Assembly: GCA_902555055.1 (NCBI GenBank)
Contig: CACDQN010000002.1
Span: 1-64,000 of the forward strand
Source: an uncultured Candidatus Actinomarina sp.
GTDB taxonomy: Bacteria > Actinomycetota > Acidimicrobiia > Actinomarinales > Actinomarinaceae
DNA: 64,000 nt
Direction of reading: 5' to 3'
Shown: positions 28 to 5,258 of the stretch, one piece after another
Position numbering within the stretch: the stretch's first letter is position 1
How the letters are laid out: each line of letters starts with the position of its first letter
Position numbers and translations under genes: made by a program
The notes under the pieces: model-generated
What the model saw: the letters and a program-made list of their open reading frames with translations, nothing else
Database searches by the model: none
What the model was told of the DNA's origin: nothing

Positions 28-3000
28 TCAACCAACCTTTACAAACTCCCATTTATTATAATCAAATTCGTATCTACCTTCTCCCTCAGGTTCATATACT
101 GGAGGTCTTCCACATACATAATCTGCCATGTATACTTTTCCATCTTCACCACCTACAAGCCCTCCTGATCTGGTTGTACCTTTAAATCTCTCACATAGCT
201 GTTGTATTAACGGATACTCAAGTCCAAAGTAATATGTAGCCATTGCCTTAAATATAGATTGTTCAATTTCTGTTGCTGCGGGATGAGAAACTAAATCATC
301 GTATGTGTAAGCCATATCACGATAAAGAAACCTTAAAAGAAATGTTTCCTCTTTAGGATCTTTTGAAATACCTTCAATGTAAGTGTCTACTGCCTTTAGA
401 TATAAATCTAGTGAAGCCCTTTCATTATTTTCACTTTCAAGTAAATTACGAGCTATATCTTTGTACCCACCTGCCAAAGCCATATAATTTCCTAAAAGGT
501 CGTCTAGGTTTGCGTCGTACCAAACAGGATTTTCAAAGTCTAATTCACGCAGTACTACAGGGTTTTGTTTAATATTTGCTAAGTCACAGTCACTAAGTTC
601 AATATCATACTGTTCTTGATCAGCTCTACATATTTGACTCGAAGCTCTTGCAATTTCTTGTTTAGCCTGCGAAATACCAAGCCAACTGGCATTAATAGAA
701 TATGCTGAAAATAATTCTTTATCTTTTTTAAGCTGATCCTCATTAATATTATTTTTTTTGTTAAGGTTAATTTTTTGTTCTAAAAGATTAAATATAAGAG
801 AGAATTCTGTAATAGATGATACCTCTCTAATTTCGTTCATTGCGAGGTTATATGCCAGTTCATAATAGTTATATTTATCGACATCGTTATCCATTACTGT
901 AGCCATAGCCATAAATGCATAAGGTAGGCTAGGAATTAATTGGATAGCTTCTTCCATAAGGAACCTAGAATTTTGCTCAAGCCCTGTATAAATAAGCTCT
1001 TTATAGGTATCAATATCTGAAATTTTTATATCACCATATTGAACATCAGTAACTGTAACCTTTTCAAGAGTCTTGTAACTTTCTGAGTTTATTAGAAATT
1101 CAAAAATATCAAAATTGATTCCACCAAGGCCATCCCAAACAAAGTTTAGATTATATTCATCACCTTGAGGATTTCTCCAATTATCATCGCCATTCACAAC
1201 TTCATTAGCAAAATAGTGGCTAAACACTATCTCTGCTTCTGTAAACTTTCTCTCACTTAACACACTAAATGTTAGATTAAGTTTTTCTGGCTCTTCTCCA
1301 TAAGCGTAAGAGCGAGGTCCGTAATGATTTATATAATCATTTATATCCCAAGAAATTACTTCTTTAGCCTTTACTTCATTATTTTCATCACATGCAAAAT
1401 ACTCATTAGTTTCAATACAACCTATCACAGTTGGATTTACTAATTGATAATAAGTTTCTGTGACTTCCTCAGGCTTTAAAAGACCTGCTGCGTACAAGAA
1501 AATTTGACTATCTTGAATGGAGTCTCTTTTAATGGCTTTAAATTTATCACCATCTTTAACTACTCTTGTTGAGAACCTCTCTGTGGGAGTAACAATAAAT
1601 ACAGGTTTATATGTACGTCCATCCGACTGCAATACCTTAAAACCACCTTGAAGAGTATTAGTAGCAGTTGATAATGGTGATAGGTGCATGCCATCATCAC
1701 TCAGTGATTCTCTATATCCTGGACGAGGAAATCCGTATTTCCCTCCGCCAGTTTGCCCATAAATTGAATGTTGGAATTCATGTACAAATGATCCAAATTC
1801 TGGATTTCCAAGCATCAATACCATTTGCAATTCAAGATGAGTTTTACCATCAGACCATGGACCTACTTTTATTTTATTATCTTGTGCTGGTGCAGGATTT
1901 CCATTTGCTTCATAGTAATCTTGAAAGAAACCTGTTCCACGTATATGATCTGTAAGTCTCATCATATGACCACCGTGATAATATTCTCTTGCCCCTAAAA
2001 CAATTCCATTGATGTTATCATCAAAAAGTTCAAAAATTCTTCTATATGCTTGAACATCAAGATTTGGACTAAACACAACAGGGTAGTTGTTATTTTCGTA
2101 TTGTGAATAATCATATCCAATATTCATGAATAATGAATTTCTTGTAGCCCATGTATTTTCACTTATATGCTTAATTTCTACTGTTCCTTTAAGCGCAGGA
2201 TCAACAACTCTCACCTCTGCTTTATCAACGTAGGATTCGTTACTAAAGTCAATATCATAAGAAAGTTTCATACAATTATTTGTATATAGTCCATCACCTG
2301 CAACAGCATCTCCATGAGTTCCGTCATCATACAGATAAGGGGGTTCTGTACTTCCACCGTCAGAAGATCTCCATTCATCACTGAATTCTATTTTTGACTT
2401 ACCTGCATTGAAATTTAAATTATCCTTAACGATAATTTGTACTGCTTCACCAGGAAAAATAACTTGTGGATTATAGTATGCCTTAAAAAAATCAGGTTCA
2501 TCACTCCCCGTACCAGCTATGAATCTTGTTCCATGAAGACTTCTTAACCATTTAGGATTGTAAACGCTTGATGCAAAAAATTGATCAATCATATCAAAGT
2601 TTGTATAAGAGCCTTCAGTTACCGAAGCATCACAGGAATCTGCTTGTTGTGGGATGTAAAGATTATTATCTGGGCAATCTAAACTATCACCGTTAACTTC
2701 ACAAAATCTGTTAATTGGTATATCTCTTGTATCTTCAGCAGTAAAGGTGCTTTTTTGATCGGAATTCTTTACATCATTTTTAATATTGTATAAATCACAT
2801 AGCGGAAGAATCTCAATTCTTGCTGCAGAAGTTTTATCTCGAACTTGTTCTAAGTAGGACTTAATTTTATTTAGGTTGTCTTCAGATGGATTAACTCTGT
2901 CATAACGTATATTTTGTTCAATTTTGTCTCTAAGCCCAGATATCGAATCACTTTCCCAATCTATTGTTTCTACAAATTCTGAATTTAAGTTATATTCAGA

Positions 3001-3963
3001 ATATCCAGGTTTATCTTCATCATTGATTGGTTCATTTCTTTTTCGTAAAGAGTCTTCAATATGTAATGCCCAACCAGTTAACTCTGCAAGTTCAGTTGTC
3101 ATGATAATAAAGCTAGATAAATCTAAACACCCTTCTAGATTTATCGTACTGATAGCAGTACCGGAATTATCATCCAGATATACGCTATCTGGATTACACA
3201 ATTTTGAAGAAAGCAATATATTGTTCTTATCATCGAGTTGCTGTTTAAGGTTTTCAATCTCATCTCTCAATGCTTGATTGCCCGTTCCTTCGGCTAAAGA
3301 AATTTCATTTTTTAACCGCTTTATTTCTTTTAATCTGATTTCTACTTCAGGATTTCCTTCAGTACTTCTAAATAAATTTAATTCTATATCTAAAAGCTCA
3401 AGTTTAAGCCTTGCCTCATCTAACACATCTTTTTCTTCTTGAGATAGGTTTTCTTTTTTTTCTAAAGGTGCAATAGTACCGTCATAAACCTCTGCAAGAA
3501 TTGCATCTTGACCAAAGTTTGCAAAATCAACATCTGCATAGCTAATTCCCAGTTGTGATTCTAATGATTGCTTCCTGTCTCTTAATTGTTGGATATATTC
3601 ATTATTATCTGAATCGCTTGATTCTGATTCATAATCAGCTTGAAGCCCTTCAAGGACTGCAAGCTCTTCTTTCATATTTTGCAATTCTTCCTCAGAATAA
3701 GTAGTGTTGGCTGAAATTGCTAAAGTCTCTTCTTGATTTCTTAACTTACTAGTGATTTCAGCAATTTCTGATGTGAGGGTCTCAACACTATCATCAGATA
3801 AGCATTCCTCATTTGGGCTAGAATCTGAACCTAAATCTACTTCTACCTTCTCATCATTATCAGAACTAGTATCAGAACTAGTATCAGAACTAGTATCAGT
3901 ATTACCACCACATGAGGAAAGTAATAAAAATAAGATTAAAACTATTGAAAAATATTTTTTCAC
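28..3963 (-). CDS. Very large (1311 aa) lipoprotein with N-terminal coiled-coil-like region, DDGTHGDAVAGDGLYT beta-sandwich motif, HEFQH putative zinc-metallopeptidase motif and helical C-terminal region
   Basis: ORF; N-terminus MKKYFSIVLILFLLLSSCGG is a lipoprotein signal with lipobox Cys; HEFQH fits HExxH. Confidence 0.75.
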   Translation of the reverse strand: MKKYFSIVLILFLLLSSCGGNTDTSSDTSSDTSSDNDEKVEVDLGSDSSPNEECLSDDSVETLTSEIAEITSKLRNQEETLAISANTTYSEEELQNMKEELAVLEGLQADYESESSDSDNNEYIQQLRDRKQSLESQLGISYADVDFANFGQDAILAEVYDGTIAPLEKKENLSQEEKDVLDEARLKLELLDIELNLFRSTEGNPEVEIRLKEIKRLKNEISLAEGTGNQALRDEIENLKQQLDDKNNILLSSKLCNPDSVYLDDNSGTAISTINLEGCLDLSSFIIMTTELAELTGWALHIEDSLRKRNEPINDEDKPGYSEYNLNSEFVETIDWESDSISGLRDKIEQNIRYDRVNPSEDNLNKIKSYLEQVRDKTSAARIEILPLCDLYNIKNDVKNSDQKSTFTAEDTRDIPINRFCEVNGDSLDCPDNNLYIPQQADSCDASVTEGSYTNFDMIDQFFASSVYNPKWLRSLHGTRFIAGTGSDEPDFFKAYYNPQVIFPGEAVQIIVKDNLNFNAGKSKIEFSDEWRSSDGGSTEPPYLYDDGTHGDAVAGDGLYTNNCMKLSYDIDFSNESYVDKAEVRVVDPALKGTVEIKHISENTWATRNSLFMNIGYDYSQYENNNYPVVFSPNLDVQAYRRIFELFDDNINGIVLGAREYYHGGHMMRLTDHIRGTGFFQDYYEANGNPAPAQDNKIKVGPWSDGKTHLELQMVLMLGNPEFGSFVHEFQHSIYGQTGGGKYGFPRPGYRESLSDDGMHLSPLSTATNTLQGGFKVLQSDGRTYKPVFIVTPTERFSTRVVKDGDKFKAIKRDSIQDSQIFLYAAGLLKPEEVTETYYQLVNPTVIGCIETNEYFACDENNEVKAKEVISWDINDYINHYGPRSYAYGEEPEKLNLTFSVLSERKFTEAEIVFSHYFANEVVNGDDNWRNPQGDEYNLNFVWDGLGGINFDIFEFLINSESYKTLEKVTVTDVQYGDIKISDIDTYKELIYTGLEQNSRFLMEEAIQLIPSLPYAFMAMATVMDNDVDKYNYYELAYNLAMNEIREVSSITEFSLIFNLLEQKINLNKKNNINEDQLKKDKELFSAYSINASWLGISQAKQEIARASSQICRADQEQYDIELSDCDLANIKQNPVVLRELDFENPVWYDANLDDLLGNYMALAGGYKDIARNLLESENNERASLDLYLKAVDTYIEGISKDPKEETFLLRFLYRDMAYTYDDLVSHPAATEIEQSIFKAMATYYFGLEYPLIQQLCERFKGTTRSGGLVGGEDGKVYMADYVCGRPPVYEPEGEGRYEFDYNKWEFVKVG
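3859..3900. repeat. Tandem 12-bp repeat (ATCAGAACTAGT x3 plus a partial copy) encoding the (TSSD)n linker
   Basis: Read directly from the sequence. Confidence 0.9.
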
Positions 3964-4019: not shown

Positions 4020-5258
4020 CTAATTTTTTTTAAAGACAAGAGCTCCATTGTGCCCACCAAAACCAAAAGAATTAGACATTGCTGTAGAGAGGTCTTTTTC
4101 TAGGGCTATATTTGGGGTGTAATTTAAATCACATTCTTTATCTGGATTATTCAAATTTATTGTTGGTGGAATAATATTATTTTTTAAACTTAATAAGGAA
4201 ACTAATGACTCAAAAGCACCTCCACCTCCAAGTAAGTGTCCTGTCATAGACTTTGTAGAAGAAATATTAACATCGTATGCTTTTTCACCGAAGACTGTTT
4301 TGATTGCAGCAGTTTCATTTTTATCATTTGCTGGGGTAGAAGTTCCATGAGCATTAATATAATCAATATCATCAGGTGTTAATTGAGCATCAAATAGTGC
4401 TTTCTTCATAGCATCAACAGCACCTTTACCACCTTCTGCTGGGGCAGTAATATGATGAGCATCTGTTGATGCACCATAACCAGCAACATAGCCATATATA
4501 TTGGCACCTCTATTAATTGCCGATTCTTCACTTTCCATAATCAAAACTGTTGAACCCTCTCCCATTACAAATCCATCTCGATCTTTATCAAATGGCTTAC
4601 AGGCTTCTTTAGGATTTTTATTATTTGTTGAAAGAGCTCTTATTTGAGCAAATGCACCAATCGTCATAGCAGTTGTTCCAGATTCTGTTCCACCTGCAAT
4701 CACCATATCTACAATTCCATTTTGAATCATATTTTTAGCTTCTCCAACAGCGTTAGCAGAAGCAGCACAGGCTGTAGTGATTGTCAAAGAAGGTCCTTCG
4801 ATACCAAATTTAATTGCAACTTGTCCTGTACTTGAATTAGGCATCAATTGTGTTATGGCTAATGGATTTATCCTGGATGCACCTCGTTCATCGTATGTCC
4901 TCACTGCTTGTTCAGTTGCACCTATACCACCAATACCAGTTCCAAAAACAATTCCTACTCCATTCCCCAACCTTTGTTCTGTATCAAGATTCGCATCTTT
5001 AAGAGCTTCTTCTGTTGCATAAATAGAGAGATGTCCTGATCGATCAAGTTTGCGTGCATGTTGCTTTCCCATATACTCATTAGCATCAAAATTTTTAACT
5101 TCACCTGCAAAAGTTACTGGAAGTTCATCTGTTTTAAATGAAGTAATATGGTCTATTCCAGAAACACCTTTAATTAGGTTATTCCAAGTATCTGAAACAT
5201 TATTCCCTAATGGATTTATTGTTCCAAGACCGGTTACAACGACACGTCTTTTAGACAC
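4020..5258 (-). CDS. fabF: Beta-ketoacyl-ACP synthase II
   Basis: ORF; MSKRRVVVTGLGTINPLGN start, TACAAS active site, NAHGTSTPANDKNE motif. Confidence 0.95.
   Translation of the reverse strand: MSKRRVVVTGLGTINPLGNNVSDTWNNLIKGVSGIDHITSFKTDELPVTFAGEVKNFDANEYMGKQHARKLDRSGHLSIYATEEALKDANLDTEQRLGNGVGIVFGTGIGGIGATEQAVRTYDERGASRINPLAITQLMPNSSTGQVAIKFGIEGPSLTITTACAASANAVGEAKNMIQNGIVDMVIAGGTESGTTAMTIGAFAQIRALSTNNKNPKEACKPFDKDRDGFVMGEGSTVLIMESEESAINRGANIYGYVAGYGASTDAHHITAPAEGGKGAVDAMKKALFDAQLTPDDIDYINAHGTSTPANDKNETAAIKTVFGEKAYDVNISSTKSMTGHLLGGGGAFESLVSLLSLKNNIIPPTINLNNPDKECDLNYTPNIALEKDLSTAMSNSFGFGGHNGALVFKKN

Follow-up and report, generated by a model that had tools for sequence, protein, structure and literature searches.

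We identified, at the start of an uncultured Candidatus Actinomarina contig, a gene whose product is probably an anchored zinc-metallopeptidase-like enzyme of an uncatalogued family, sitting in an exchangeable surface-protease slot; we give this reading a probability of about 0.6, zinc binding, peptidase activity and substrate being the parts that we infer. The genomic setting of the gene, a variable site between fabF and fabI, is new in this analysis. The window, that is, the whole 64,000-nucleotide stretch analysed, is the beginning of contig C2 of an assembly (G000) of 1.01 Mb that is 82% complete, and contains the following features.

28–3963, minus strand: P0001, lipoprotein gene, HExxH metallopeptidase-like; open reading frame with a GTG start, 1311 aa, with full-length homologs in five other Actinomarina species
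3910–3963, minus strand: signal peptide and lipobox with predicted lipidated Cys18 (LSSC), read from the sequence; the leader module differs between otherwise near-identical homologs
2668–3909, minus strand: (TSSD)n linker and Glu/Lys/Leu-rich coiled-coil-like region, of lowest conservation (sequence and homolog comparison)
2278–2334, minus strand: choice-of-anchor X motif (DDGTHGDAVAGDGLYT), beta-sandwich-like region (NF041940)
1927–1971, minus strand: conserved GHMMRLxDH(I/V)RGTGF motif upstream of HExxH (homolog alignment)
1768–1782, minus strand: HEFQH (H728, E729, H732), invariant HExxH, putative zinc site (homolog alignment)
1684–1695, minus strand: invariant D757 and H760 (SLSDDGMHL), candidate third metal ligands (alignment); in motif order, H760 corresponds to the HW of a broader family
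1255–1560, minus strand: region with profile similarity to the HExxH...HW family (SxxxLYxxGLLxPEEV ... GPR; hhalign E 0.0015)
31–1194, minus strand: C-terminal TPR-like region, mostly helical (AlphaFold helices in parts, weak PDB TPR matches)
4020–5258, minus strand: fabF, fixed flank of the exchangeable site (genome comparison)

Architecture and distribution of the lipoprotein

The 1311-aa reading frame described in an earlier note on this DNA was confirmed at 28–3963, on the minus strand, which that note did not give, and the elements listed there, namely, the lipobox (LLLSSC, Cys18), the (TSSD)n linker, the acidic coiled-coil-like stretch, DDGTHGDAVAGDGLYT and VHEFQHSIYGQTGGGKYGFPRPGYRESLSDDG, are all present in the sequence. 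A hydrophobic leader with a terminal Cys is found in all six homologs, the window protein included, and, by its sequence, the product is a bacterial lipoprotein predicted to be lipid-anchored at the surface. The choice-of-anchor X model (NF041940) matches residues 544–562 with 28.9 bits (cut-off 25) and is matched by 6/6 homologs. AlphaFold models the C-terminal third as helical, in parts with pLDDT 70–87, and a PDB search gave weak TPR matches for it.

A full-length copy was found in 6 of the 42 species genomes of the order, the window genome included, and the homologs of the five other species share 41–93% identity with the window protein; named homologs at 91–94% identity come from the Candidatus Actinomarina single cells AG-390-E09 and AG-447-I21. 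Outside the six carriers, no further copy was detected in 397 phylum-sampled genomes with the full-length profile or in 395 class-sampled genomes with the core profile, and comparison of the core with plasmids, phages and viral contigs yielded nothing except one chance-level match to a Halorussus plasmid. The existence of full-length homologs in five other species, together with a dN/dS well below 1 (for the catalytic part, dN 0.011 and dS 0.062 between G000 and its relative G023), argues that this is not a chance reading frame. Matches of 30–70 residues in other Actinomarina reading frames were rejected as homologs because they reflect shared lipoprotein leaders only. Separately, other Actinomarina encode lipoproteins of about 1000 aa with a FecR domain (L022 2722–5925, similar in L020–L025), which have only the leader in common with the window protein.

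The earlier statement that the protein belongs to no recognised family holds for its catalytic part, which has no relative in Pfam, NCBIfam, PHROGs or the PDB (in the last case by both single-sequence and profile searches), NF041940 being the only model matched above its cut-off. The catalytic domain also suggests that Pfam and NCBIfam lack an HExxH family.

The HExxH core and its candidate metal ligands

HEFQH lies where it had been reported, with its codons at 1782–1768, and fits the zinc-metallopeptidase motif; H, E and H are conserved in 6/6 homologs, down to 41% identity. Conservation is highest in residues 604–923 (320 aa), which include the motif and in which the homologs are 57–98% identical to the window protein, compared with 32–92% in the coil. 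Invariant or nearly so are GHMMRLxDH(I/V)RGTGF, HE(F/Y)xHSIxGQ, SLSxD..HL and FLYxAG.

The third ligand suggested in the earlier note, the Glu of a downstream RESL (E752), did not withstand comparison. This residue is replaced or shifted in three of the six homologs (G011, G016 and G012), with RES, GEGS, WAS and RGS found at this place across the family, and no Glu is invariant for about 100 residues after HExxH in the six-homolog alignment; thus, the canonical gluzincin arrangement is unsupported. Because H760 and D757 are invariant in the same alignment and no Glu is, a His (or Asp) is the better guess, and, judging from conservation among the six sequences, the third ligand would most likely be H760, with D757 as the alternative.

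A canonical gluzincin, M30- or M60-like, using the RESL Glu would account for HEFQH with a downstream Glu in the window protein and for an M60 lipoprotein in the same site in G013, but, given the inconstant Glu, the lack of any Pfam gluzincin match even at E 10, and an hhalign score against the slot M60 of only 16.7, within the shuffle background, we consider it very unlikely. No M30 or other gluzincin profile, which the earlier note had proposed as a check, was matched, nor was any Pfam or NCBIfam peptidase profile at E up to 10. Divergent M60 identity was rejected as well (no Pfam match; the hhalign score corresponds to p 0.25, at background). AlphaFold models of residues 433–1311 and 604–923, for which the input comprised six rows only, reached pLDDT 47 and 43, respectively, with the HExxH region below 40, and a PDB fold search with the low-confidence catalytic model (pLDDT 43) returned nothing significant.

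The order of motifs resembles that of an HExxH...HW...SPLDLYLMGL family. This broader family was reached with a consensus probe, which does not itself count as evidence; only the real sequences found were compared. The probe matched WP_013572926.1, annotated as "hypothetical protein" on the Granulicella tundricola plasmid pACIX901 (E 2e-10), and an actinobacterial protein of G331 (L163; E 2.8e-14); for both, Pfam and NCBIfam gave no match to a peptidase family. In an hhalign comparison of the Actinomarina family with the HExxH...HW family, residues 802–903 were aligned with E 0.0015 and a probability of 16%; the score, 31.6, exceeded those of all 300 column shuffles (maximum 25.2) and of the reversed control (16.3). 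This similarity is located downstream of HExxH, the motif itself being outside the aligned region, and single-sequence comparisons with members of the family were not significant. By eye, an RGTGF/QGIGL-like motif, HExxH, a His, xLYxxGLLxPEEV and GPR are collinear, with 25–32 residues from HExxH to H-W/H-L, so that the alignment of HExxH rests on this collinearity; overall identity is about 20%. The residue after the invariant H760 is Leu in the window protein, whereas the broader family has HW, and the G331 member reads QExxH instead of HExxH. Taken together, these comparisons weakly suggest that the catalytic domain is linked beyond chance to an uncatalogued HExxH...HW family.

The variable site between fabF and fabI

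Each of the five relatives with the gene has it flanked by convergent fabF and fabI. In the window genome, the gene's immediate neighbour is fabF, and fabI is on contig C4, the first 5.2 kb of which carry companions of 868, 484 and 118 aa; contigs C2 and C4 presumably join at this site. The site was readable in 32 genomes. In 20 of these, including G015, the closest relative by FabF, fabF and fabI abut and the site is empty, and in 12 it is occupied: by this gene in six, by Trypsin_2 lipoproteins in three (G034, G025 and G033), by an M60 lipoprotein in one (G013), and by a trio of unknowns alone in two (G010 and G032); the G033 and G013 sites end at contig ends before fabI. Thus, in 10 of the 12 occupied sites, the fabF-side lipoprotein is a protease or resembles one.

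The trio, whose members (about 850, 485 and 120 aa) cannot be placed in any known family, travels together and adjoins fabI in several Actinomarina genomes (L094 785–5233; L002 9825–14273; L077, L081, L082, L083). In G014, an M60 lipoprotein (L089 613–3831) that is 97% identical to that of G013 is located elsewhere, beyond ppdK, and the fabF-fabI site of this genome is empty. A family of lipoproteins of 366–408 aa with a conserved EVxEHVFHTIHMSG motif, not in Pfam, was also observed (L004 8587–9813; L030 3376–4581; L031 12338–13438); with it, the island may have a second motif that resembles a metal site. Near the fabF-fabI region, several Actinomarina genomes encode a lipoprotein of 569 aa that carries a glycosyl hydrolase family 57 domain (L084 538–2247).

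The contents of the site bear on whether the protein is an enzyme at all. It could act as a large adhesin or receptor at the surface, without proteolysis, its HExxH being structural or a relic and the slot serving surface variation, for example, against phages or grazers. Large lipoproteins without an enzyme family (866/842, 480 and 408 aa) are indeed among the occupants, binding could be the role of the coiled coil, choice-of-anchor X and TPR-like parts, QExxH stands in place of HExxH in the G331 relative, and an envelope-variation island is known in this order (PMC7771536). We nevertheless regard this explanation as unlikely, if a serious contender, since no part of the protein is under tighter constraint than HExxH and its surroundings, and all slot occupants with a recognisable enzymatic domain are peptidases. 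The latter observation also speaks against a peptidase-like fold put to another hydrolytic use on the cell envelope, with glycans or lipids as targets. HExxH is found in non-peptidases too, and the neighbouring fabF and fabI are lipid-synthesis genes, but the fab genes are there with or without the insert and hence are flanks rather than partners, and we view such an activity as highly improbable.

The gene is accessory and horizontally exchanged between Actinomarina species. Between G000 and G023, the dS of this gene, 0.137, is about ten times below the values for most flanking genes (FabH 1.52, FabD 1.64, FabI 1.39), and the 866-aa companion gives 0.163; between G011 and G016, dS is 0.03 for the 842-aa lipoprotein versus 1.27 for FabF. 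Values so far below those of the flanks indicate that the cargo moved between species recently, and the intermediate dS of the adjacent FabF (0.32, G000 versus G023) is expected if the recombination tract extends into FabF. Furthermore, the bodies of the G000 and G023 proteins are 92–98% identical, whereas their leaders (leader and linker, window 3850–3963; L005, L007) are only 37% identical; conversely, the G023 and G011 leaders are 84% identical, with bodies at only 44–68%. From these identities, leader and linker appear to recombine independently of the body. Unrelated lipoproteins of a single genome also have common leaders (L004, 408 and 832 aa).

Proposed function and comparison with known systems

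Under the preferred reading, a metallopeptidase-like enzyme, the protein would be exported and held by its lipid on the outer face of the cell membrane. A coiled-coil stalk would be followed by a choice-of-anchor X beta domain, then by the metallopeptidase-like catalytic domain and, at the C-terminus, by a helical region resembling TPRs. This catalytic domain might be a divergent branch of the uncatalogued HExxH family, in which zinc would be bound by H728, H732 and a His further downstream (H760 being the most likely), and water would be activated by E729 for the cleavage of extracellular or surface peptides. The cell-surface peptidase proposed in the earlier note is accordingly plausible, in view of the surface lipoprotein, its conserved HExxH and the M60 and trypsin-like occupants of the slot in relatives, with the exception of the gluzincin-type Glu ligand. 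At the fabF-fabI site, Actinomarina species would acquire, lose and trade large lipoproteins of the surface, frequently proteases, presumably by homologous recombination in the shared flanks. That this is a dedicated "protease slot" of streamlined Actinomarina, where unrelated giant surface proteases (HExxH type, M60, trypsin-like) replace one another and are traded between species, with leaders recombining apart from bodies, is a tentative proposal with somewhat less than an even chance of being right. Actinomarina genomes, at about 1 Mb, have been described as island-poor, and this accessory surface protein takes up about 0.4%. If the slot is indeed species-variable in proteases, it would be a concrete candidate for niche differences in this photic-zone bacterium, such as in the use of peptides or in interactions with grazers or phages.

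Among known systems, choice-of-anchor X proteins (NF041940) are akin to the window protein by the match above the curated cut-off; the model represents a 37-residue motif only and is silent on the catalytic part. Unlike the HExxH...HW family, the window protein has a lipobox and choice-of-anchor X, coiled-coil and TPR-like additions. The Peptidase M60 (PF13402) lipoproteins of G013 and G014 are likewise giant lipoproteins with HExxH, the G013 copy being on the fabF side of the same site, but on the opposite strand and with no detectable sequence relation to the window protein. The Trypsin_2 (PF13365) lipoproteins are large lipoprotein proteases in the same fabF-side slot and orientation, with a trypsin-like serine protease fold and unrelated sequences. 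A genome study of the order described a single polysaccharide island shared across the order and located at tRNAs, along with a few further islands (PMC7771536); the words "peptidase," "protease" and "lipoprotein" are absent from its main text, and a non-exhaustive literature search found no report of the fabF-fabI site. The flexible islands of Ca. Actinomarinales resemble this site in placing variable cell-surface genes at a fixed location, but the order-wide island carries envelope polysaccharide genes at tRNAs, whereas the site described here lies between fabF and fabI and carries protease lipoproteins.
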